From Defluviitaleaceae bacterium (GTDB lineage: Bacteria; Bacillota; Clostridia; Lachnospirales; WQUN01), in assembly GCA_009786685.1 (NCBI GenBank), contig WQRQ01000008.1:1-46532 (forward strand): DNA of 46,532 nt. Reading direction: 5' to 3'. Shown here in pieces: positions 14,425 to 46,532 of the stretch. The notes under the pieces are model-generated. The model was not told where the DNA came from. It made no database searches and was given only the letters and a program-made list of their open reading frames with translations. The translations under genes were made by a program, and so were the position numbers. The number at the start of each line of letters is the position of its first letter. Position 1 is the first letter of the stretch.

Positions 14425-17340
14425 TTAATCCTCACCCAGCTTTAGGGCTTGGTCTATGCGGATTCTTGATATGAAGGAGATTAGTATGGCTACGCATATT
14501 ACTACCATCGTGGCCATTACTGTGTATAGGGTGGTGTAGTCTCTTGTTTCCATTACTACTATCATGGGGATTACTTGGTTGGAGTAGGCCAGTTGTATCA
14601 GGGGTACGTACAGGCGGGCGGTGAGTTCGCCTACGACTGCGCCTATTATCAGGGCGGTTAGGGTGATGAGGATTTGCTCGTGGATTAGCATTGCGATTAT
14701 GCTTTTCATGCGCATACCCATTGCGCGGAATATGCCGAATTGCAGCACGCGTTCGCGGATGGAAAGCAGCCAGTAGATGAGGAAGCCGCTAAAACAGATG
14801 AGTAAGGTGGCGATAAAGTTTACCGTAAGCACGCCGTTTGTGCCTTGGATTAGTGGGTCGAGGCGGGTTTGTACTACGGCGTTGCTCACGTCGTTGATGG
14901 CTACATAGGGGTGGCGAAGGCCGCGCAGATGTGCATTGCGCATGGCTTCTTGAGTGACAGGTCGCAGGCCGTTTTCTTGCATAAAGTCGTGGAAGAATTG
15001 GTTTGTTTCCGTGTTTGTGCGCAGCCATACGTCGTATGGCCATACGCCCCATTGGTGGTGGAAAAAGCCCAGATTTCCCACTACAAGGTGATTGTCTTGG
15101 ATGATTGTGTTGTCGTCCGCGAGGGTGGTTTGTGTAAACGGCTCGAAGGTGGGGAAGCGTTCCAAAAAGCCTATGATTACCATGGGCGGGGTTTCGCTGT
15201 GTATGATACGAGGGTTTTGGTCAGGGGGAAGGGAGGCTTCCCAGATTCTCCATTGATGTTCCAGTATTATCGTGTTGCCCACGACAAAGCCCCTGTCGCG
15301 AAAGCTTTCTGAGACGAGTATGCCGTTTGGTACTTGTGACAGCACATTCAAATAATAATTTATGTGAATAGGAAGAAAATCGTCACGAAACCACGCCGCA
15401 TACCCAAAGCTTTGCGTTTCTATTGCCATGAGGGTTATGTTGGAGGTTGGCATTTCTCCGCGGCCCGGTCCTGTTCGTCTGCCGGATACTTCTTCGGTTT
15501 TTACGCGGGTTATCACTTCGATTTCTTCGAAGTCGTCGAAGCGGGTGAGGCTTGGCTCGTTAAAGATGAGTTCTCCCGCAAAGCCAAAAGCAAACTGATG
15601 TCGGTTGTTTGGCCATAACTCGCGGAAGGTAAAATCCGTGCCGCCAAGGTAGCGTGTTTCGTGTTCTGCATTAAGGTTAATTGTGCGTGCCGTTTGTGCC
15701 GAGAAAATCCCGATTGCCATGGTAAACACAAGAAAAATCATAATAAATTGCTCCTCGCCGGAGCTACGCGCAACACGTACAAGCGCGGTGTATAGCGAAA
15801 CAGGCATAAAACGCCGCCCGATAAAAAATACAAGCTTAACAATGTAAGGGAAAACCCTGAGACAAAACAGCCCAAGCCCCACCATAAACAGCGTGGAGGA
15901 TAAAAACAGTGTAGGGTCGATAAAATCGCGGGGTATATTGCCCAGCATTTCTTGCTGATTATTAAAATTCCAAATGCCGTAAACGGAAAAACCAAGGCAG
16001 GCGATATCCAAAAAATACCGTTGCCACAAGGCCTTTTTTAATTTACCGTCCTTGCCGCGCTTAAACTCGACTATGCCCAGCTTTGAGAAGCGGATAACGG
16101 GCAAAACCATGGCGAAAAACGAAAACAAAGACGCCGCGCCGCCAAAAACAAGCACCTGCGGTGATATCTCCACGACTATGTTGGAACGCCCCATAAGCTC
16201 CAAAAATCCGCTGCTCGCGCCGAGTATATGGCAAATGCCGACACCCAAGGCCAGCCCAAGCGGCAACGCGATAAGTCCAACAAACAAGCCCTGCCCTACA
16301 TATATCCCAAAGATTTGCAGGCGGCTCGCTCCGCGGCTTTTTAGTACGGAGATATCGTTTTGTTCCAGTTGTAAAATTTTGCGGCTTACCACGTAGATGT
16401 AAAACGCGAGTAAAAAATAAATGGGGACTTGCAGGATGATTAATGCAATATTAAATTCTGCGGCGCGCTCTACGTGGTCTTGCAAGAGGTCGTAGAAATT
16501 TTGGTGGAAGTTCCATTGCTGCGAGGCTGCAAAACGCTCGTTAATGGCGGCGATTGCGTTCATGTAATTGCGGATGCTGCCGCCTGTCATTTGCATGTAG
16601 TCGTGGACGCTATGCCATGATACCGTCAGGCGGTAGTCGAATGCATAGTTTTCTATAAAGCGGTTTGGTACAAGGTTTTGGTGGATTAGTACGTCGCGGG
16701 TGAAATCAGGGCTTGTGACTGCCCAAAACGGGCTGCCATGCTCATGGATTTCGAAAATGCCTACCACTTGCGCAAGTAGGTATGGTTTGCCCGCTTCTTG
16801 GTCGTATACGTTTTCTATGCGTATCAGTTCATCCAATAACAGGTCTTGTTGGAGCATTGCCGCGCTCATTGCGATTATTTCTATTATTTCTGTTTGGCCT
16901 TGTATGACCGGGTTTTCCGAGGGCATTCTGCCGTGGGTTATGGTTATGTTTTCTTCCATGCCCTGTACGCCGAGCAGATTTATCCTGCGTCCTGCGGGGT
17001 ATGTTTGCCAGTTTGCCAAGCTGTAGGCTTTGATGGTTTGTGCGGGTATTCCGATTTGCGCCATTACCTCGGGGAAGACGGTGTCGGTTGTAAATCTGTA
17101 GACTTGAGCCTCGTAGCCCGCAGCGGCGTTGCTAAAATGCAAACTAAGCTGCGAAAACGCAGGATAAATACCGTCGTTAACCTGCCTGAGACGCATTGCC
17201 TGGTGCGCCATCCGCGTAATCGTCGCATTGGAATACATAGGCGTGGACGAAGTAATGCCAATGAGCAGAATATTACCTGCCAACAGGCATAAAAGCAGCC
17301 ATTTGTTTTTCCACATTTTACGCAGTAAGAAATTTATCAT
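14425..17340 (-). CDS. Large FtsX/MacB-type ABC permease
   Basis: 971 aa; N-terminal TM, long extracytoplasmic region, two membrane blocks, C-terminal FtsX pattern (ERVLQFGIFRAMGMRMKSIIAML). Confidence 0.88.
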   Translation of the reverse strand: MINFLLRKMWKNKWLLLCLLAGNILLIGITSSTPMYSNATITRMAHQAMRLRQVNDGIYPAFSQLSLHFSNAAAGYEAQVYRFTTDTVFPEVMAQIGIPAQTIKAYSLANWQTYPAGRRINLLGVQGMEENITITHGRMPSENPVIQGQTEIIEIIAMSAAMLQQDLLLDELIRIENVYDQEAGKPYLLAQVVGIFEIHEHGSPFWAVTSPDFTRDVLIHQNLVPNRFIENYAFDYRLTVSWHSVHDYMQMTGGSIRNYMNAIAAINERFAASQQWNFHQNFYDLLQDHVERAAEFNIALIILQVPIYFLLAFYIYVVSRKILQLEQNDISVLKSRGASRLQIFGIYVGQGLFVGLIALPLGLALGVGICHILGASSGFLELMGRSNIVVEISPQVLVFGGAASLFSFFAMVLPVIRFSKLGIVEFKRGKDGKLKKALWQRYFLDIACLGFSVYGIWNFNNQQEMLGNIPRDFIDPTLFLSSTLFMVGLGLFCLRVFPYIVKLVFFIGRRFMPVSLYTALVRVARSSGEEQFIMIFLVFTMAIGIFSAQTARTINLNAEHETRYLGGTDFTFRELWPNNRHQFAFGFAGELIFNEPSLTRFDDFEEIEVITRVKTEEVSGRRTGPGRGEMPTSNITLMAIETQSFGYAAWFRDDFLPIHINYYLNVLSQVPNGILVSESFRDRGFVVGNTIILEHQWRIWEASLPPDQNPRIIHSETPPMVIIGFLERFPTFEPFTQTTLADDNTIIQDNHLVVGNLGFFHHQWGVWPYDVWLRTNTETNQFFHDFMQENGLRPVTQEAMRNAHLRGLRHPYVAINDVSNAVVQTRLDPLIQGTNGVLTVNFIATLLICFSGFLIYWLLSIRERVLQFGIFRAMGMRMKSIIAMLIHEQILITLTALIIGAVVGELTARLYVPLIQLAYSNQVIPMIVVMETRDYTTLYTVMATMVVICVAILISFISRIRIDQALKLGED

Positions 17341-18563
17341 CGCGCACCACCTGCAATCACAACATATTGCCCCGGCTCCACTCCCGAAAGGACATGCTGA
17401 TACTGTCCGCTAATGTACAGCCCCGGGGTAATAAAACGCTGCCTAAACACGCCGTCATCGTAAATAATTACATAGTATGTCTCGACAGGGAGTTCCAGTA
17501 TTGTCACGAGTACTGTATTAATCGCGGCGAAGGGCAGCCATATGCTTTCTCCGTACATGTTTTGTGTGGGATATGCCCGACGACCATCATACCTGCGAAG
17601 CTGTGTCCAGTTACCTTCCAGTCGGTATAATGCGTTTGCGATTCCTTCATAGGAAAGAGGACGCAGTATGAAATTTGCACCTGCTCCTCTAAACCCGCCC
17701 GCGAATGGGTCGCTTGCCACCTTTGCGTAAAATTCTTCGCCTGCAAGAGAAATGGGAACGATGTCGCCGTAGCGGAAAATATGCGCACCCGGGCCGGGAA
17801 CATTAAAAAATACCGTGTCCACGTCTGCGATGGATACTATGACGCGGTTTTCCGCGATGGTTGTGCCTTCTCGGATTGCCGCGATAGATGTAATAAGCCC
17901 GTCGAAAGGCGCGGTGATGTACTCCGCCGCAAAAAGAAACTCGGTGTCGGCTATACTTTCACGTGCGTTTTGTATGGCGCGTTGGGTTTGGGTTATAAAT
18001 TGCTCGTATTCCAGCTCTCGGATTGCGAGATTAATAATCGCCCGCTCACGCGCTGTGGCGACGGCTGTGTCAACCTCGCGCTCCAAATCCTGTATCTCTA
18101 TCCGCCGCCTGTATCGCTCGTCCCGGAAGTCCGTTTCCATTTGTCGCAGGTCGTTTACCGCTCGCCTGTGCCGCGCAATCTCGATATCCGTAGGCTCATA
18201 AAAACCCGACGCCAAAATATCACCCTCGCGCACCATATCACCCTCCGATACATAAAACTGTCGAAAGCTTAGGTTTTCCATCTCAAAGGGTAGGTCGTAA
18301 TGCCTGAAAAATTCTATGCTGAAAACTATATTGCGCGTACTCACCCGTGTGTCCAAAAACACAGGCGCGTAACGCGGCAACGCAGCCGTGGCCTCCGCCC
18401 GTTCGAAAGCCATAATTAATCCCGCATTAACGGCGTCATCAAACGAGCCGATAGTGGAAGTCTCGAATTCTGCGCCACATGCGGTTAGGAGCAAAAAGAG
18501 TACACCGAAAATGAATGGGAGACTTTTACCGTACAAGCACAACATCCCCTTCCTCCAAGCCAT
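17337..18563 (-). CDS. Lipoprotein HlyD-like adaptor (adaptor 3)
   Basis: Lipobox LLTAC; FYVSEGDMVREGDILASG; coiled coil; ITAPFDGLITSIAAIREGTTI. Confidence 0.82.
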   Translation of the reverse strand: MAWRKGMLCLYGKSLPFIFGVLFLLLTACGAEFETSTIGSFDDAVNAGLIMAFERAEATAALPRYAPVFLDTRVSTRNIVFSIEFFRHYDLPFEMENLSFRQFYVSEGDMVREGDILASGFYEPTDIEIARHRRAVNDLRQMETDFRDERYRRRIEIQDLEREVDTAVATARERAIINLAIRELEYEQFITQTQRAIQNARESIADTEFLFAAEYITAPFDGLITSIAAIREGTTIAENRVIVSIADVDTVFFNVPGPGAHIFRYGDIVPISLAGEEFYAKVASDPFAGGFRGAGANFILRPLSYEGIANALYRLEGNWTQLRRYDGRRAYPTQNMYGESIWLPFAAINTVLVTILELPVETYYVIIYDDGVFRQRFITPGLYISGQYQHVLSGVEPGQYVVIAGGAR

Positions 18564-19614
18564 AGAGTACCTCGATGTAGGTGTCGGTGACTATGCCTAT
18601 TCTTATGAAGGTGAGTTCTTGCTCACCGTTTGGGGTTATTCTGTATACGGTGTTTATGTCGCGTGCCGTGGATACTGCGTTTGGGGGTATGCGTAGGGTG
18701 TTTTCCGATAAGAGTGTTGTGTATACGATGGAGGCGTACGCGCCTATGGGCGGTATTGTGCCGCAGGGGGGCGGGATTATCTCGTATCGCCAACGTGGCA
18801 ACTCGCCCAAGAGTTGAAGGCGGGCGATTTCTTCCATGGATATTGTGATACGCTCCAGGTCGTAGAAGAGACCGTTAATATAGGCGCGGATACGGGGCGC
18901 GTCGCGCAGGCTTACGTGTAAAAGTGTGTTTAGGTCTTTTACGAAGATTTCGTTTGAGTAATGCAGGTAAATTGTAAAGGGGAATGTGATAAGCGTAATT
19001 ATGCCGTCGGTCGGTGCGTAAAGCCGCGTGTCGTGTAGGAGTGTGCTAATCTCTGCGATGTTGCGTCGGGTGTCCGCTATGTCAAGTTGGCGTGTTTGTG
19101 CAGTGTGCGTGTGGAGGAGTTCTGCGCGTTCGATTTCGAGGAGGATGTTATCTGCGGCTCGGATTGCTTCCGCGTCGAAGGCTGCGGCGGCTCGGCTCAT
19201 TGCTTCGTTGTAGTCGAGGTGGCGCAGGGCTATGTTAAGGGCGAAAATTTCTGCTTCTATTGCGTTGCTTCTTATCATGTCTGCGAGGTGCTGCTCTGCT
19301 TGGTTTATTTGTTCGTCTATGTCTTCCGTGCAAAGGCGGGCGAGTAGTTGGCCTTGGGTTACTTCGTCACCTTCATTTACATACACTGCGGCTATGTTGC
19401 CGCTTATTTCAAATGAAAGGGGAACGGAATCCACGCGCACTACGCCGTGACGCACCGCCAATTGCTCCACCGTGCCGCGTGAAACCGTGTAAAGGTCGGG
19501 CGCGGCGGCGGCAAAGCCCGCGGCTTCCAAGAGCGCGGGGCCTTCCGATTGCGGGAAGCCTTCCGAGGCACAGCCCGCGAGTATAAAAATAAGTACGGCG
19601 ACAAGTTTTTTCAC
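18526..19614 (-). CDS. Lipoprotein HlyD-like adaptor (adaptor 2)
   Basis: MKKLVAVLIFILAGC lipobox; VYVNEGDEVTQGQLLARLC; coiled coil; YAPTDGIITLI. Confidence 0.82.
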   Translation of the reverse strand: MKKLVAVLIFILAGCASEGFPQSEGPALLEAAGFAAAAPDLYTVSRGTVEQLAVRHGVVRVDSVPLSFEISGNIAAVYVNEGDEVTQGQLLARLCTEDIDEQINQAEQHLADMIRSNAIEAEIFALNIALRHLDYNEAMSRAAAAFDAEAIRAADNILLEIERAELLHTHTAQTRQLDIADTRRNIAEISTLLHDTRLYAPTDGIITLITFPFTIYLHYSNEIFVKDLNTLLHVSLRDAPRIRAYINGLFYDLERITISMEEIARLQLLGELPRWRYEIIPPPCGTIPPIGAYASIVYTTLLSENTLRIPPNAVSTARDINTVYRITPNGEQELTFIRIGIVTDTYIEVLYGLEEGDVVLVR

Positions 19615-20630
19615 AGTATTATCAACTCCCCTGTCTCCAGCCCGCTAAGGATTTGTGTGTATTGTGTGGATTGTATGCCGATTTCTACGTGGCGTCGGCG
19701 GCGGATGTCGTCTTCTAAGACAAATACAAAATGCCGGTCGCCGTCTCGCCGCAAAGCGCGTGACGGTATGGCGATTACGTCGGATACCATATCAAACACA
19801 TGCACTATCCGCCCCAGTGTGCCGGATTCGAAAACCAAATCCTCGCCGCCTATTATGTTAAACCACGCAGTGGTAGGGTGGGGGTCAAACCCGTCGGGGA
19901 TGATGGCCTCTACTTCCACGGCCAAGGCCATCGGCACAATTGTCATAGTAAACCTGTCCCCGGGCGAAATATAAGCCGCCACTGTATGCCGCTGTGCGCG
20001 GAAAAAAGCCTGCTCCATATCCTCCACAATGGCAACGGTAGCCGAGACGGAAGAAAGCTGCCCCTCGATAAAGCCCATCACATTGCGCACAACGCCGTCG
20101 ATTGGCGAAAAAACAAAACGGTCAAGCTCCGCAGAAATAAGTGCCTCATAATCCAGTATTAAAAAATACATAGCGGTATCAAGCCGCTCCCGCTCACTTA
20201 GGTAGAAATAATCATCCAGCGGCACGCCTGTGGTCTCTGCCATTCGAAGGCTGAACTCATGCCGCTCCTGTAGCTGGCGGATTTGCAAGGCAAGCCGCTC
20301 ACGGTCTCGGCGTACTTCTTCGATGTCTTCTTGATTTTCGGGGTCTTTTAGTGATGCGATTACTTGGCCCTGGGTTACAACATCGCCGTTTGATACATGT
20401 ATTTCTTCGATTTCTAAGCCTGCGCGGGCGAAGTTTAGTATATATCGTATTTCGGAATTAAATATGGGCAACAAAACCGCGTCGGAAACAACATCCCCGC
20501 GCTGCACAGGTATTGTATTAAAAACAACATCCGCGGGCGGCTCAAACATCGGCAGGGGAGCTTCCTCGTCGATGGGAAGCGCGCCGCAAGCCGTAAACAA
20601 GAATACCGCGAGCAAAAATAGTTTTTTCAT
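19611..20630 (-). CDS. Lipoprotein HlyD-like adaptor (adaptor 1)
   Basis: MKKLFLLAVFLFTAC lipobox; IHVSNGDVVTQGQVIASL; coiled coil; FSPIDGVVRNVMGFIEGQ. Confidence 0.82.
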   Translation of the reverse strand: MKKLFLLAVFLFTACGALPIDEEAPLPMFEPPADVVFNTIPVQRGDVVSDAVLLPIFNSEIRYILNFARAGLEIEEIHVSNGDVVTQGQVIASLKDPENQEDIEEVRRDRERLALQIRQLQERHEFSLRMAETTGVPLDDYFYLSERERLDTAMYFLILDYEALISAELDRFVFSPIDGVVRNVMGFIEGQLSSVSATVAIVEDMEQAFFRAQRHTVAAYISPGDRFTMTIVPMALAVEVEAIIPDGFDPHPTTAWFNIIGGEDLVFESGTLGRIVHVFDMVSDVIAIPSRALRRDGDRHFVFVLEDDIRRRRHVEIGIQSTQYTQILSGLETGELIIL

Positions 20631-22831
20631 CGTGTAATCCTCATTTGACGCGCCCAACTGCGTGGTATCCAGATTTCCAAATCCTCGCCCAAGGCCGCCG
20701 TTACGGTAATACGGCCATTGGCGGGCAGAATAATATCGCCGTCCTCGGGCAAATCGCGGCGGACGTCCACAGGGCGCTGCGGCACATAAACTTCTCTCGG
20801 GATATACTCCGTACGCGGGCCTGTGTAAATAGGCTCGGGCATAATCCCCAAGTATTCAAAAAGCGTAGACCAACCCGGCGGGAAAAGGTCGCCGGGGTTA
20901 ATCACTTCCCCGGGCATAATAACAGCGTCAAACTCCCGCACCCACTCACCCGGCCCGGAAACATGAAAGCCCGCACGCGTTGTACGACTGTTGTTAGCCA
21001 GCGCAAAAGCCGTGGCGGCACGGTTAAACAAATTTACAGAACGCCCCGGCGCAACGGTAATCCGATAAAGCGGCTCCTCCGCAACCGAACGCAATCGTAA
21101 ATACCGCCCATACCATTCCTGCGGAAATACCACGGAAAGCGTAACATCCTCCTGCGGCATAATAGTAATCCGTCGGTTAACAGGCAGCAAATACCACCCA
21201 AACAGCCCAAAGCCGTAATCCATCACAATATTGCCCTGTGTGGCAGCCATCACAAAATCATATGCATACTCGGCGTAGTCCTCTCCCTCGTTTTGCACAA
21301 GAAGGAGACGATTACGCGCCCTGTCGATATTATCAATCTGCAAAACCTCGCCGTAGGAAAGCACTCGGCGGTATAACGCAGGGTAATCGCGCTGCTCTAT
21401 GGTGAGCGCGGCAAGCTGCGGATAAATCAGCACCGCGCCGTCATCGGACGAGAACACGGCGGACTGCCCGCTTTCCAGCAAAAACCGGCCATCGTGGGGG
21501 ATACGCCCGAATGTTAAAATTGTCCCGCCATCATCCTTGAGGAGAAAATCTATGCCTGTTTCTTCTATAGAATACACGGAGAACGGGATATCGCGCCCTG
21601 TGGTGTTTTCTGCATAAACGGCAGGCGACAAAACGCGCCGCGTAAGCGCGGGCAAAGCGGAAGCACGATACGACACCGCAGGGATATCCGGCACGCTTGC
21701 CGAAACCGGCGACAAAGCCGTAACCACAACCATACTATCCGAAGGCACAGTCACAGACGCCCGCTCACCGATAAAATCACGCACCACGTTAAAAAACAAA
21801 TCATCGTCGTCGCAAAGGGTGACATACTCAAAGCTAAACTCGCCCATATCCTCGGCGCAACGCAAAAACACCGTATGCGTCCTAAGCGGGTCGGTATTGG
21901 TAATCTCAATGGAACGCCCCGCCTGCAAGGTGACATAAACAGGCGATTCTGCGCCCCCCTCTACCACAAGGTCGCCAAGCCAAGCATACGGAAAATACAA
22001 CTCACCATCCGCCAATGCGGTAACACTAACCGACTGCCTCGCCGCAAGCCGTATCTCGTCACTTTCCGTCTCGCCATGGCGCACAACATGCCCGTCCCGC
22101 CCACGAATCACATACTCATAAGCAAAAAAATTATCCTCGGAAAACACCCGCAAAGTATACACGGTATCCCCTGTGTTAGTCACATCATAAACCTGCCCCA
22201 AAATCAGCTCCAGCCGTTGTAATGCCTGCGCCGGAGCGGTTTTATCCAAAACATCTATCTGCCATAAATTGTCAGGAAAGTATACTTCCAGTAGCTCCGC
22301 GCTCACGGTAATCGTCCCACCCGCAGGTACACTCAAAACAGGCAACCGCGCCGCCCGCTCAAAATGCGTAACAACCCCGTTTCTGTTAGCCACCACAAAA
22401 TCAAAATACCCCGCAGCATTAGTCCGAATTTGCAAACGCTCCGTGCCTGTATTTTCCAGCATTATCGTGTCGCCGCTAACAGCAATCTGCCGCAAAGCCG
22501 CCCCCGCCCGCTCCGCAACCCGCACCCGCGAAGAATCAAACGTAACGGTTATCGGAGATAACGGCGCAACCTCCGCTACCCCGATGCCACTAACACTAAA
22601 CCGCCCCGCCGCAAACCCAAACCGCGTAACAGCCCCCTCATAATCCCACAAAACAATCTGATACCGCCCCGTCCCCGCCACATCAACATGCGAAACAACC
22701 CGAGCGTCCAACCCCGTAAACGTATAAACATACCCCGGCTGCAAAGTCCGAGTTTGCCGAGACGCCTGCATCCCAATCGGCGCAAGCAAAAATGTCAAAA
22801 ATAAACATCCGACAAAAAATTTCCGTAGCAT
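20627..22831 (-). CDS. Secreted protein of about seven tandem all-beta repeats, function unknown
   Basis: Signal peptide MLRKFFVGCLFLTFLLAPIGMQA; recurring ~90-100 aa unit with vxLxxGxvxxxxN ... lxxgxxvxVta...lxfP..W. Confidence 0.75.
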   Translation of the reverse strand: MLRKFFVGCLFLTFLLAPIGMQASRQTRTLQPGYVYTFTGLDARVVSHVDVAGTGRYQIVLWDYEGAVTRFGFAAGRFSVSGIGVAEVAPLSPITVTFDSSRVRVAERAGAALRQIAVSGDTIMLENTGTERLQIRTNAAGYFDFVVANRNGVVTHFERAARLPVLSVPAGGTITVSAELLEVYFPDNLWQIDVLDKTAPAQALQRLELILGQVYDVTNTGDTVYTLRVFSEDNFFAYEYVIRGRDGHVVRHGETESDEIRLAARQSVSVTALADGELYFPYAWLGDLVVEGGAESPVYVTLQAGRSIEITNTDPLRTHTVFLRCAEDMGEFSFEYVTLCDDDDLFFNVVRDFIGERASVTVPSDSMVVVTALSPVSASVPDIPAVSYRASALPALTRRVLSPAVYAENTTGRDIPFSVYSIEETGIDFLLKDDGGTILTFGRIPHDGRFLLESGQSAVFSSDDGAVLIYPQLAALTIEQRDYPALYRRVLSYGEVLQIDNIDRARNRLLLVQNEGEDYAEYAYDFVMAATQGNIVMDYGFGLFGWYLLPVNRRITIMPQEDVTLSVVFPQEWYGRYLRLRSVAEEPLYRITVAPGRSVNLFNRAATAFALANNSRTTRAGFHVSGPGEWVREFDAVIMPGEVINPGDLFPPGWSTLFEYLGIMPEPIYTGPRTEYIPREVYVPQRPVDVRRDLPEDGDIILPANGRITVTAALGEDLEIWIPRSWARQMRITR
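22238..22257. repeat. Dispersed repeat copy 3, inside the repeat-protein CDS (minus-strand reading IDVLDKTAP)
   Basis: GGTTTTATCCAAAACATCTA, 20/20 identical to 1232-1251. Confidence 0.6.
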
Positions 22832-22849
22832 GTGAATTCCTCCTAAACG

Positions 22850-23752
22850 TCAAAGTTTTGGTGAAGCCGGCTTGCAAAGTATAACTCGCCCGTCCTTGTC
22901 CATATGTATGTGAAGGCGATTGCTGTCGAGGTTCATTTGGTCGAGGATGGCGCGTGGTATTTGGACGCGGCCTGCGCGGTCGAGGACGGCGTATTCTATT
23001 TGTTCGGCTGTCCACCCCGAAAGGTTTGATAGCTGCTCCGAGTAGTTTGTTATGAACTCTGATGAGGTTTTGCCGTCTCGGATGGCTACTACGCGTTGTA
23101 CTTTTTTTGCGATTTCGCGGTCGTGGGTTACTATTACTATGGTTGTGCCGAGTTCTGCATTTATTTTGCGGAACATGTTTAGGATAAGGTCGGTGGTGGA
23201 GGTGTCTACGCTGCCTGTGGGTTCGTCGGCCAAGAGGACGGCGGGGTGGTTGGCGAGGGACAGGGCTAGGGCTACGCGTTGTTGTTCGCCGCCCGAGAGT
23301 TGGGACAGGCGGTGCTTTACGCGCTTTTCCATGCCTGTTAGCTCAAGGAGCTGTAGGGCGCGTTCGCGTTTGTTTTTTATTGGGTTTTTGCGGTTAAATT
23401 GCATTGGCATCATTACGTTTTCGAGGGAGGTGAGGTAGGGGATTAGGTTGCGGGCGTTGTTTTGCCATACAAAGCCTACAGTGGAGGTTTTGTACTCTAC
23501 GAGGTCTCGCTCGCGCATTTTAAACAGGTCTTTGCCGTCTACGATTAGCTGCCCTGCGGAGGGCTTGTCAAGACCGCCTATCATGTTAAGTAAGGTTGAT
23601 TTTCCGCTGCCGCTGTTGCCTATTATTGCCATGATTTCGCCGCGCTCTATTGTTAGGTCAAGGCCTTGCAGGGCCAGGACTTCTACGTCCTTTGTTTTGT
23701 AGATTTTTACCAAGCCTTCGGCAATTATTACATTATCGGTTTCGGATTTCAT
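22850..23752 (-). CDS. ABC transporter ATPase with AbrB-like C-terminal extension
   Basis: Walker A GNSGSGKST, LSGGEQQRVALALSLA, LLADEPTGSVD; C-terminal EYAVLDRAGRVQIPRAILDQMNLDSNRLHIHMDKDGRVILCKP. Confidence 0.9.
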   Translation of the reverse strand: MKSETDNVIIAEGLVKIYKTKDVEVLALQGLDLTIERGEIMAIIGNSGSGKSTLLNMIGGLDKPSAGQLIVDGKDLFKMRERDLVEYKTSTVGFVWQNNARNLIPYLTSLENVMMPMQFNRKNPIKNKRERALQLLELTGMEKRVKHRLSQLSGGEQQRVALALSLANHPAVLLADEPTGSVDTSTTDLILNMFRKINAELGTTIVIVTHDREIAKKVQRVVAIRDGKTSSEFITNYSEQLSNLSGWTAEQIEYAVLDRAGRVQIPRAILDQMNLDSNRLHIHMDKDGRVILCKPASPKL

Positions 23753-24425
23753 TGATTATCTCTCCATCCGCGAGTTCGTATACGGTGTCCGCTATTTCCA
23801 TCAGGTCGGGGTCGTGAGTGGTCATTACTACTGTTGTGCCTTCGCTTTCGATTAGGTCTTTGAAGAGATTTACGACTTGTAGCCCTGTGTTTGTGTCGAG
23901 TTCTGCCGTTGGCTCGTCTGCGAACAGGATTTTTGGGCGGTGGGCTATTGCACGGGCTATGGCTACGCGCTGCTGCTCGCCGCCGGATAGCTCGGGCGGA
24001 ACGTGCTTCATACGGGGGGTGAGGCCTACTTTTTCCAGACATTCCCTAGCGCGCTCGTTGCGCTCTCTTGCACCCGCGCCGCTTAGTCGAAGGCTGAATT
24101 CTACGTTTTCGTAGGCTGTCATCATGCTGATAAGTGCCACGGATTGGAATACAAAGCCCATATCGTAGCGACGCAGACGGTCGCGTTTTTTTACGGAAAG
24201 CTTATTGATTGCCTTGCCGTCAAAAATAATTTCGCCCTCGGTGGGATAATCCAGTGCGCCGAGCATATTCATTAATGTAGTTTTTCCGCTGCCGCTGCGC
24301 CCCTTTAATATAGTAAGCTTACTCTGCGGTACGGAAAGCGAAAGCCCTTTTAATGCCCAAAACTTGCCGCCGCCTACAGGAAAAGAGCGTTTGATATTTT
24401 TTGCAAGCATTATCATTTCGCTCAT
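23733..24425 (-). CDS. ABC transporter ATPase (MacB/LolD type)
   Basis: GRSGSGKTT, LSGGEQQRVAIARAIA, ILFADEPTAELD. Confidence 0.92.
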   Translation of the reverse strand: MSEMIMLAKNIKRSFPVGGGKFWALKGLSLSVPQSKLTILKGRSGSGKTTLMNMLGALDYPTEGEIIFDGKAINKLSVKKRDRLRRYDMGFVFQSVALISMMTAYENVEFSLRLSGAGARERNERARECLEKVGLTPRMKHVPPELSGGEQQRVAIARAIAHRPKILFADEPTAELDTNTGLQVVNLFKDLIESEGTTVVMTTHDPDLMEIADTVYELADGEIINEIRNR

Positions 24426-42023: not shown

Positions 42024-42446
42024 ATGGAAAATTTTATTTTTCTTCTTAGCGAAGGCGGGTTTTCTTTCACGGCAGACCCGCTTTTTAGTATGCTTTGGCA
42101 GATGATACGCTTTCTTGGAGCTACGGCTTTGGTGGCGTTTTTGGCCTACATCGCTACTAAGAAGATGGTCGGGGCGCGTTTTTCCGGGCAAAGGAGCGGT
42201 AATTTGTCCATAGTCGAGTCCGTTAATGTTAGCGGACAGGCTGTTGTCCAGCTTATTAAGGCGGGGGACAAGTATATCGTGATTGGCGTTACCAAGGAAC
42301 GCATTACCTTGCTTGGGGAAGTGGACAAAGAGCAGATATCGGAGAATGTCGAATTACAGGCTTTGGATACGCCTTTTGGTAAGGTGCTTTCCAGGTTTAT
42401 TAAAAACGCGCCTGAGTCGGGGGGCGAGAACGATGAACATAAGTAA
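42024..42446 (+). CDS. fliO: Flagellar biosynthetic protein FliO/FliZ-like
   Basis: 140 aa, N-terminal TM, LSIVESVNVSGQAVVQLIKAGDKYIVIGVTKERITLLGEVD, immediately before fliP. Confidence 0.85.
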   Translation: MENFIFLLSEGGFSFTADPLFSMLWQMIRFLGATALVAFLAYIATKKMVGARFSGQRSGNLSIVESVNVSGQAVVQLIKAGDKYIVIGVTKERITLLGEVDKEQISENVELQALDTPFGKVLSRFIKNAPESGGENDEHK

Positions 42447-43233
42447 ATTGGCTTTTGCAGCCTTGTTCTTGGGTCTTATTGGCGTGTTTGGCGTCGTGGA
42501 TGTATATGCCGAGGGCGCGGGGCTTTTGAATCCCGATGGCGGATTTTTCCCCGGGATTGCCGTGGAGGTAGGTGCTACCGACGACCCCGAAGCCGTGGTT
42601 GCTACGCTTCAGGTGCTGTTTCTTGTTAGCATTATCGCGCTTGCGCCTTCGCTTCTTGTGTTGCTTACCGCTTTTACGCGGATTGTTATTGTACTTAATT
42701 TTACGCGGCAGGCTATGGCTACTCAGCAAATGCCGCCTAACCAAGTGCTTGTTGGTATCGCACTTTTTTTAACCTTGTTTATTATGACCCCGCAGTTTAC
42801 AGCGATTAATGAAAATGCCATACAGCCGCTGGGGACGGGGGATATCGGCATTGCCGAGGCCTTGGACGAAAGCTGGGCTGTGTTGCAGGAGTTTATGCTT
42901 GTACAGCTAAACAATAACGCCAGCGGCGAACAGGCCGTTACCATGTTTATGGATTTGGCTGATTTGCAGATTGATTACGACCATGAGATTCCGCCGCATG
43001 TGCTTATACCTGCGTTTATTATTAATGAACTGGCCTGGGGCTTTTTGATAGGATTTTTGATTTACCTGCCGTTTATCGTCATTGACATGGTTGTGGCCAG
43101 CGTTTTGATGAGTATGGGTATGATGATGTTACCTCCCGCTATGATTTCTATGCCGTTTAAAATTATGGTGTTTATTTTGGTAGGGGGCTGGCGATTTATT
43201 ATTGAGGGGCTAATGCTTACGTTTTTATTGTGA
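42433..43233 (+). CDS. fliP: Flagellar export protein FliP
   Basis: LAPSLLVLLTAFTRIVIVLNFTRQAMATQQMPPNQVLVGIALFLTLFIM..PAFIINELAWGFLIGFLIYLPFIVIDMVVASVLMSMGMMMLPPAMISMPFKI. Confidence 0.97.
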   Translation: MNISKLAFAALFLGLIGVFGVVDVYAEGAGLLNPDGGFFPGIAVEVGATDDPEAVVATLQVLFLVSIIALAPSLLVLLTAFTRIVIVLNFTRQAMATQQMPPNQVLVGIALFLTLFIMTPQFTAINENAIQPLGTGDIGIAEALDESWAVLQEFMLVQLNNNASGEQAVTMFMDLADLQIDYDHEIPPHVLIPAFIINELAWGFLIGFLIYLPFIVIDMVVASVLMSMGMMMLPPAMISMPFKIMVFILVGGWRFIIEGLMLTFLL

Positions 43234-43290
43234 GCCTCGGGAACTTTTTTGAAAATGTGACGTTTACATATTTCAAAGGAGTGAATTATT

Positions 43291-46200
43291 ATGAAAAAAG
43301 CGATTGCAATTGTGTTGGCAGGGATATTGTTTATCTCTGCTATTTTAATTTTCCCTGTGTCGGAAGAAAGTGCGCTTCCGACGCCCGCCGATGTTTTTGC
43401 GGCGGAGCGGACATTTGAAAATGGCGAGGATGGTCGGATTGCCGCTGTCGCTGATTTTGATGTTGATGAGGTGCTGGATGGGCAGGCTGCGAGGGGTGGG
43501 TTTATTCTCGCGCCGACTATGCTTGGGGCACGGGGGATTGATACGCTTAGCTCGTTTGTTTTGCGTAGCCCCGATGATTTTGGGGTTGGGGAGCCTTTGA
43601 TTAGCATTGCGGGGCAGCCTGCGCCTACGATTTTGCGCGAGGATAATCGGACTTTTGTGATTACGCCTGCCGTGCCGCTTACGCCTAACAGTGTTTATGT
43701 TTTTACGCTGGGGCGTGAGGACGGCGAGGATATAAGCTGGGCATTTCAAACAGATGTTTTGCTGGAGATAACGGGAACCTTGCCGCGTAACCAGGCTGTT
43801 AATGTGCCTGTGCGTACGGGTATCGAGATTACATTTTCTTTTGGGTCGAATGATATCAGTGAGGATTTTAGCATTTATCCCCATGTGGACGGAAATTTTA
43901 TACGGCGGGATAATACTTCGATTTTTGTGCCGCGCACACCGCTTGCTTATGGCACGATTTATACCGTGCGTGTGCGTGGGATAGAGTTTTCCTTCGAGAC
44001 CGAGCCTGAGCCGGGGGTACGGCTTCGCGACCGTTGGGATGTGTCTGTTCAGTTTTCTAATGTATATGTTGAGTTTCCTTCTTTTGCCGCGCCTGTTGTG
44101 CATTTTTGGCTTAGCCACAGTCGCCAGCACGACAGAATGAGACCTGCCATTGATATGAATATCTATAGATTTAACGATTTGGATGGTGCGATTTCTGCGG
44201 TTAATCGCTTGGCGGGCGCGCCGTTTTGGTCGCATTTTGCTGCGGGGCTGTATGTGGTGGATACCTCTGTACTTACGCGGGTTTCTTCCGATACGATTAC
44301 GGAAAGGCAGGATGGCGACCATTGGAACGAAAGCTACACGCTGCCTTATTTGCCCGTAGGTTTTTATGTGCTTAATGCTGTCGTGGGCGGCGAAATTAGC
44401 TCGCAGATTATTTTGCAAATCACCGATACTGCGGTGCAGGTAATCGCTGACGAAAGCCGTGCGCTGGTTTGGGTAAATGACATGCATACGGGTGCGGCTG
44501 CTGCTGCTGCGCGGGTTACCGTGGGCGACGAGTTGTTTGTTGCCACCGACTACGGTATTGCCGTGGTGGAGCGTGATGTGGCTATCGGCTCACATATTTT
44601 GGTAGAAGTAAACGGCATGGAGAGTGTGGTTTTTGCGCACCATGGCGGATTTCAGCACTTCTGGGGCTGGTTTGACTGGGGGGTCTGGGATGACGATTTT
44701 GGATGGGGTGGGGGATTTGCACGTCGGCCTTTGCCGGGGATGAGCCATCATTCTTCCAATAATCAATATTGGACGGCTTTGCAATTGGACAGAACTTTGT
44801 TCCAGCGTAACGATACCGTTAATTTATGGGGCTTTGTGCAAAACAGGCGCAATCCGCAGACGGAAATCAACCACGTTACTGCCGTGCTTACCGAGCAGAG
44901 ATGGTGGTGGTGGGACTACGACGGCGTCGGCAATGATACGCTTCTTCGCCAAAACATCCCTGTGATGTACGGCTCGTATAATGCAGAAATTAATCTGCCG
45001 CATTTGTCGCCCGGGTCTTATGAAATTGCGGTTTTCCATGGCGATGTTTTGTTAAGCTCCATATTTTTTAGCGTGATGGACTATGTAACGCCGCCTTATC
45101 GTATGGTGGTGAGTGCCGACCGTGCGGCGGCTTTTGTGGGCGAGGAGATTACATTTACGGCGAGTACGCAGTTTTTTGAGGGGACGCCTGTTCCTGATTT
45201 GAGTATTACCCATGATTTTTGGACTTGGGAACTAACTCCGCTTCCCGGTGGAAGGCGTACCGCAGTGACAGACAGCGAAGGAAATATAACGGTTACGGCG
45301 GAGACGCGTGCGGCTGATTCTCGGGTGCAGGGAGAGCGGCATTTGACCTTTGCTGCCGAAGCCACCCTGCCCGAAATCGGATGGGTACACCAGACGGCGG
45401 ACGTGAGGGTTTTTGTAAATGATATTCATACGCGGCCAAGGGCTTTTAGGGATGGCGCGGACGCTACGCTTTCTATTGAGACGCATAGTATTGATTTGAC
45501 ACGGTTAAATGACGGCTCCGCCGATGGGTGGAGTGATTTCCTGGGAGAGCCGACGCTCGGGCAGGTTTTTAATGTTCAGATTTACGAAGTTTGGTGGGAG
45601 CCTGTGCGCAGTGGGCAGTTCTACTGCCATGTAACGAGGGAGCTTGTTAACAGATATCGTCATGTTCGCAGGCAAGCCCATTTGCAAAATTTTTCAATGA
45701 CAAGCGGTGCAGACGGCGTGGCATCACATGATTTTACCGTGCCAAATACGGAGCGACGCAGCTACGAGGCGCGGATTACCACAACCGACGGAAACGGCCG
45801 CAACATACGGCATACTGTTTTTATCGGCCGAAATTTCGAGAGCTTTTTCCAGCGTGCGGATGATGACAGGATTTTCTTGTACGGCGGGAACAACGAGGGC
45901 TACAATATAGGCGACCGTGTGGAGCTTACAATAATGCGCGGCACGGAGCCTGTAACCACGGGTAATTTTCTGTTTGTGGTGGTGCAGGGCGGCATTATGT
46001 CTTACCATATAGGGTCTAATCCGCTGGAGCTTGAATTTACCGAGCGGCATGTGCCAAATGCGCAGGTTTTTGCGTACCATTTTAACGGGCATATATTTAA
46101 CAGCGGCGGGCAGATGAGCCATAGGCTGCGGTTTAATCCGACGGAGCGCGAGATTTTGATTAGCGTGGAAACATGCAGCGAGGCCTACAGACCCGGTGAT

Positions 46201-46532
46201 ACGCCGACGTTTACGGTGACTACCACAGACCTCAACGGAAACCCAATCGCCGCAAATGTTAATATTAGCCTTGTTGACGAGGCGTTGTTCGCGCTGATGG
46301 ATTACAATGTGGATACGCTGGGTATGCTTTACGGAAATGTCCGCGATGAGCTACGGTTTAGCCTTGCCACGCATGTCACTTTTGTGAGTGAGGGTGTAGA
46401 AAACCAGGCTTTGTATGGCGGTGGTCTCTTTTCGCGGCAGCTTCGTACGGATGTAGGGTTGGCGCACAACTTTGCTATGGGTGCTCCTGCGGTTGCAGAA
46501 GTTGCAGAAGAAAGCGCGGAAATGGAATGGGC
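43291..46532 (+). CDS. Alpha-2-macroglobulin-like secreted/membrane-anchored protein, 5' part (C-terminus beyond window)
   Basis: Single open frame from ATG 43291 (AAAGGAG RBS) to window end; N-terminal hydrophobic segment; serial Ig/MG-like domains; EILISVETCSEAYRPGDTPTFTVTTTDLNGNPIAANVNISLVDEALFAL resembles the A2M core; absent from ORF track because no stop in window. Confidence 0.82.
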   Translation, partial: MKKAIAIVLAGILFISAILIFPVSEESALPTPADVFAAERTFENGEDGRIAAVADFDVDEVLDGQAARGGFILAPTMLGARGIDTLSSFVLRSPDDFGVGEPLISIAGQPAPTILREDNRTFVITPAVPLTPNSVYVFTLGREDGEDISWAFQTDVLLEITGTLPRNQAVNVPVRTGIEITFSFGSNDISEDFSIYPHVDGNFIRRDNTSIFVPRTPLAYGTIYTVRVRGIEFSFETEPEPGVRLRDRWDVSVQFSNVYVEFPSFAAPVVHFWLSHSRQHDRMRPAIDMNIYRFNDLDGAISAVNRLAGAPFWSHFAAGLYVVDTSVLTRVSSDTITERQDGDHWNESYTLPYLPVGFYVLNAVVGGEISSQIILQITDTAVQVIADESRALVWVNDMHTGAAAAAARVTVGDELFVATDYGIAVVERDVAIGSHILVEVNGMESVVFAHHGGFQHFWGWFDWGVWDDDFGWGGGFARRPLPGMSHHSSNNQYWTALQLDRTLFQRNDTVNLWGFVQNRRNPQTEINHVTAVLTEQRWWWWDYDGVGNDTLLRQNIPVMYGSYNAEINLPHLSPGSYEIAVFHGDVLLSSIFFSVMDYVTPPYRMVVSADRAAAFVGEEITFTASTQFFEGTPVPDLSITHDFWTWELTPLPGGRRTAVTDSEGNITVTAETRAADSRVQGERHLTFAAEATLPEIGWVHQTADVRVFVNDIHTRPRAFRDGADATLSIETHSIDLTRLNDGSADGWSDFLGEPTLGQVFNVQIYEVWWEPVRSGQFYCHVTRELVNRYRHVRRQAHLQNFSMTSGADGVASHDFTVPNTERRSYEARITTTDGNGRNIRHTVFIGRNFESFFQRADDDRIFLYGGNNEGYNIGDRVELTIMRGTEPVTTGNFLFVVVQGGIMSYHIGSNPLELEFTERHVPNAQVFAYHFNGHIFNSGGQMSHRLRFNPTEREILISVETCSEAYRPGDTPTFTVTTTDLNGNPIAANVNISLVDEALFALMDYNVDTLGMLYGNVRDELRFSLATHVTFVSEGVENQALYGGGLFSRQLRTDVGLAHNFAMGAPAVAEVAEESAEMEW

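Follow-up and report, generated by a model that had tools for sequence, protein, structure and literature searches.

Among proteins with the alpha-2-macroglobulin (A2M) architecture, YfaS of E. coli is thioester-less and has no PbpC neighbour. The E. coli A2M used as an example in the literature carries a thioester, and its gene is often found in an operon with pbp1C; with the search terms used, we found no paper on Gram-positive bacterial A2Ms with PbpC. The typical clostridial flagellar cluster presents the gene order ...fliO-fliP-fliQ-fliR-flhB-flhA.

We analysed a window of 46,532 bp that corresponds to a full contig (C8) of a MAG of 2.93 Mb in 195 contigs (G000). In this window, fliP is the last gene in the intact part of a flagellar cluster (flgB...motAB-fliL-fliM-fliY-cheY-fliO-fliP) and is followed by an A2M gene. 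The initial annotation placed the end of fliP at 43233 and the start of an A2M-like gene at 43291, with no fliQ-fliR-flhB after fliP. The two boundaries are borne out by the reading frames and domain searches, and the missing genes were located on another contig. The features of the junction are the following:

42433..43233, + strand: fliP (PF00813, E=1.7e-70; TIGR01103 over the cut-off)
43234..43290, + strand: fliP–A2M intergenic gap of 57 bp, with a strong Shine-Dalgarno sequence (AAAGGAG) shortly 5' of the A2M start
43291..46530, + strand: thioester-less bacterial alpha-2-macroglobulin, N-terminal 1080 aa (Pfam Big_5 and A2M_BRD; AlphaFold model)

Beside the flagellar cluster, positions 14425-24425 of the window harbour a minus-strand run encoding apparent ABC transporter ATPases, large permease-like proteins and lipoproteins.

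We consider it probable that two independent events meet at this junction: a split of the flagellar operon in the genus and the landing of a surface, thioester-less A2M at the broken end.

Flagellar gene order beyond fliP in the genus

The A2M gene had initially been read as a replacement of fliQ-fliR-flhB. We rejected this reading, since a check on the position of these genes found fliQ-fliR-flhB together and intact on contig C21 of the same genome and flhA, also intact, on contig C59. Moreover, the break after fliP is common to all eight genus loci, with varied genes downstream. The observation and the family call were thus correct, and the apparent replacement is a chance product of the operon split found throughout the genus.

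The genus has split its operon after fliP: fliQ is absent within 1.5 kb of fliP at all eight readable loci of the genus (G000 to G007), whereas it directly follows fliP at the 22 loci examined outside the genus (22/22; at one of these, in G054, fliQ alone was recognised). The initial annotation had also raised the prospect of the same break being conserved across the family; we find it conserved at the level of the genus and not at that of the family. The eight loci display seven different arrangements 3' of fliP. Two genomes have the A2M gene there; in the others fliP is followed by a HIT-like gene or a gene pair, both encoded on the opposite strand, by a putative lipoprotein gene, by one of two different ORFs (one of them of 524 aa) or by an apparent rnpA-like gene (all identified by eye). 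In six members of the genus, a FliD-like ORF followed by fliQ-fliR-flhB is located on a separate piece.

In an ancestor of this genus of uncultured termite-gut Clostridia, the flagellar cluster would have broken after fliP into three blocks: flgB...fliO-fliP; fliQ-fliR-flhB, mostly preceded by the small FliD-like gene; and flhA. Different genes would have come to lie beyond fliP in different species, and in the subclade of G000 and G005 this gene is the A2M, whose orthologues elsewhere sit in unrelated places. We infer a single ancestral break. In G003, fliP, the 524-aa ORF (L108:7681-9255, reversed; signal-like N-terminus) and fliQ-fliR-flhB succeed one another on one contig, an arrangement that is possibly an intermediate of the operon split or the outcome of a second event. 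The G003 order weighs against the single-break account, as it would also fit repeated breaks or an intermediate that has been kept. Dating of the break by fliP and fliR trees was dropped, since both left the genus unresolved.

The gene located 5' of fliQ on C21 (G000:C21:11371-12096, minus strand) encodes a 241-aa protein without a Pfam match, which is similar, as judged by eye, to the FliD C-terminus and is a candidate for a flagellar component not yet characterised. The gene lies in front of fliQ in six genus members, with copies 67-90% identical to that of C21. The gene that comes after flhB in most genomes of the genus (G000:C21:8091-9143, minus strand) encodes a conserved membrane protein with a weak match to Peptidase_C92 (YaeF/YiiX; E=0.013).

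Domains, fold and possible role of the A2M protein

The A2M reading frame (43291-46530, 1080 aa) is free of stops up to the contig end and remains open at its 3' end because the window is the whole contig. This truncation is an assembly effect and does not imply a natural one. When the missing C-terminal half was sought on the other contigs of the genome, only a paralogue on contig C20 was matched. The orthologue of G005, of about 1709 aa, is 77% identical to the window protein over the shared part. The following segments were recognised in the window protein:

43291..43350, + strand: signal/anchor helix without lipobox Cys (helix at residues 2-18 of the model; alignment)
43765..43977, + strand: Big_5 (Ig-like/macroglobulin-like) domain, residues 159-229 (Pfam E=5.8e-11, over the cut-off)
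45892..46296, + strand: A2M bait-region domain A2M_BRD (PF07703), residues 868-1002 (E=1.2e-8; 35.8 bits versus a cut-off of 22.7)
46378..46530, + strand: probable bait region, residues 1030-1080 (pLDDT <50; poorly conserved)

The initial annotation proposed a domain search for its A2M-like gene, and the call holds: Big_5 and A2M_BRD exceed the Pfam cut-offs and the predicted fold agrees. In the G005 orthologue, Big_5, A2M_BRD and A2M are over the cut-off (PF00207, 33.2 bits versus 21) and bMG10 is slightly under. The place of the PF00207 domain lies past the contig end in the window and its evidence comes from orthologues, where all 25 C-terminal halves scanned match both PF00207 (E<=0.1) and bMG10. 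With a profile built from ten orthologues, the C-terminal MG10 region hits solved structures of YfhM and the A2M domain hits human A2M, each with E of about 1e-6.

AlphaFold models of the 1080 aa of the window and of the C-terminal half of the G005 protein (mean pLDDT 72 and 84, respectively) point to the same family. In Foldseek analyses, the best PDB matches of the window half are E. coli and Salmonella A2M (E=6e-26 and 2e-25), and those of the G005 half are complement C3 and E. coli A2M. Taken together, the structure matches of both halves comprise E. coli/Salmonella A2M and complement C3/C5, at overall TM-scores of 0.5 or less, so that the fold evidence is that of ranking and E-values and the models do not settle the domain arrangement. 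A helical domain (helices 186-436 of the C-terminal half in the model) occupies the place of the thioester domain between CUB-like strands. By domain, profile and fold evidence, the window protein is a member of the A2M superfamily.

The thioester motif CxEQ, predicted by the initial annotation, is absent from 17 full-length orthologues, from the C20 paralogue and from 31 named loci of GTDB species genomes. This absence is that of the orthologues, the C-terminal half of the window's own protein being missing. The counterpart of the thioester site reads about TWWGGARVES in the orthologue alignment, and in an alignment to YfhM, whose CLEQ is at 1187, YPYGCLEQ falls near HTWWGGARVES (a weak match, E=0.0074, with a single-sequence template). 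The predicted PbpC-like partner did not appear either: PbpC (TIGR02073) gave no match over the curated cut-off in ten genomes of the genus. By membership, the window protein is thus likely not a thioester-type (YfhM-type) A2M, with a mechanism that is likely A2M-like. In this thioester-less family of termite-gut Clostridia, the model of a periplasmic protease trap paired with PbpC cannot apply.

The C20 paralogue (G000:C20:14401-19305, plus strand) is a second, distant A2M of 1634 aa. At its 3' end the gene runs into an overlapping long ORF (19119-21284) that weakly matches Memo-like proteins and not PbpC. The orthologue of G033 (G033:C15:554-5524) contains an in-frame TGA and is possibly a pseudogene or affected by a sequencing error.

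The named relatives are MAGs of Defluviitaleaceae, Oscillospiraceae and Clostridiales, many of which bear the higher-termite sample codes Emb289, Lab288, Th196, Nt197 and Co191 (described in PMC7024585). The Defluviitaleaceae of that study are reported to come mainly from the P1 hindgut compartment (PMC7024585), and the named relatives suggest a termite-gut origin for the window genome.

The protein would be a surface-anchored or secreted single chain of the YfhM fold, in which macroglobulin domains are combined with a disordered bait segment, a helical domain that takes the thioester-domain position and, at the C-terminus, MG10. Its location is presumably the cell surface; several orthologues present a lipobox-like Cys at the N-terminus, which the window protein does not have in the alignment. 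The fold and the bait-like segment suggest protease trapping, which would have to be non-covalent because there is no CxEQ thioester. Cleavage of the bait would lead the domains to rearrange around the protease and hinder it without covalent capture; alternatively, the bait could be a decoy or a sensor. Proteases of the termite gut, digestive or microbial, would be the likely target.

A possible but rather unlikely alternative is that the protein has retained the macroglobulin fold in a structural or adhesive role at the surface and traps no protease. The lack of the thioester in every orthologue examined, the lack of a PbpC partner and the distant sequence similarity to solved A2Ms are in line with such a role, but A2M_BRD is followed, in the right place, by a disordered and poorly conserved stretch, as expected of a bait region. 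Residues 1030-1080 are directly N-terminal of the place that the A2M (PF00207) domain takes in the full-length orthologue and belong to a stretch of low conservation in the orthologue alignment (0.34-0.50 versus about 0.6-0.8 over most of the protein). Two further interior stretches, around L040 residues 476-500 and 1501-1525, are equally poorly conserved, which counts against the trapping reading; these three are the least conserved of the interior.

Relation of the A2M to flagellar genes

Of the 96 genomes searched, 26 carry an orthologue of the A2M (E<1e-60), the genome of the window being counted among them. The gene is next to fliP in two of them, G000 and G005, and its surroundings are non-flagellar at every other locus examined. 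Among the named GTDB loci, 30 of 31 have no flagellar gene nearby, the exception being the G005 record itself (WRGY01000076, MAG Nt197P1bin3). In the phylum, we detected PF00207 in 40 of 250 sampled genomes, so that A2M is uncommon in this lineage, not exceptional. The initial annotation regarded an A2M in a Gram-positive flagellar locus as unusual; flagellar neighbours were found in two genomes only.

We looked for linkage or co-occurrence of the A2M with flagellar genes across relatives and found neither (Fisher p=0.42 over 96 genomes; p=1.0 within the family), with 53 genomes having fliP without the orthologue. A flagellar function of the A2M thus finds no support in gene context or co-occurrence, and the fliP–A2M neighbourhood looks incidental and not like a new flagellar system. 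Evidence against the incidental reading is that fliP and the A2M gene have stayed adjacent in two species with a 12% difference between their FliP proteins, for which a selective reason is possible.

One may consider a functional link between the A2M and motility in this subclade, in which read-through from fliO-fliP would provide flagellar-stage expression of a protein that would shield surface flagellar proteins from gut proteases. Both genes are on the same strand, separated by the 57-bp gap, and the adjacency is kept in G005 at 88% FliP and 77% A2M identity. In the window gap, scan and fold analyses revealed no significant terminator (z -1.14) and the promoter scan gave a promoter-like match no better than chance, making read-through from the flagellar operon into the window A2M possible. 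However, the matching gap of G005 contains a strong intrinsic terminator (GTTCCCC-TATT-GGGGAAC-TTTTTTT; fold z -2.79), orthologues elsewhere are away from flagellar genes, four genomes have the orthologue without a detectable fliP, and there is no statistical association between the two genes; we judge a tie to motility improbable. The fuller scenario, in which the G000/G005 subclade would have placed a thioester-less A2M under flagellar-operon control to shield flagellar or surface proteins from gut proteases in motile growth, appears less probable still.

That the junction is an artefact of assembly or binning was rejected as scarcely credible: the genome is a MAG of 195 contigs, the A2M gene stops exactly at the contig end and no other contig yielded its C-terminal half, but mis-assembly is unlikely because the separately assembled MAG of G005, another species in the genus, shows the same order (motA-motB-fliL-fliM-fliY-cheY-fliO-fliP) followed by a complete A2M gene, then an opposite-strand gene and no fliQ, and the GC3 of the A2M frame (0.530) is in line with neighbouring genes (fliP, 0.532).

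The meeting of two independent events thus stays our preferred reading, and it carries a caution: the neighbours of a broken operon end are a poor guide to function.

Comparison with described systems

The window-family A2M resembles E. coli YfhM (ECAM) and Salmonella A2M in the fold of both halves, the bait-region and A2M domains, the helical domain in the place of the thioester domain and the C-terminal MG10, and its size is similar (about 1709 aa for the G005 orthologue versus 1653 aa for YfhM). It differs from YfhM in the lack of CxEQ, in having no pbpC partner, whereas yfhM adjoins pbpC in E. coli, and in its origin from clostridia and not from a Gram-negative periplasm; the window protein also differs from YfhM and Salmonella A2M in having no lipobox Cys. 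As a thioester-less protein of A2M architecture without a PbpC neighbour, it is similar in general features to E. coli YfaS.

Compared with the typical clostridial flagellar cluster, the genus has its cluster broken after fliP, with the blocks on separate contigs, but keeps the usual order up to fliP and that of fliQ-fliR-flhB. This documents, at the genus level, a separation of fliP from fliQ, two genes that are usually contiguous and whose products belong to a single export-gate complex.
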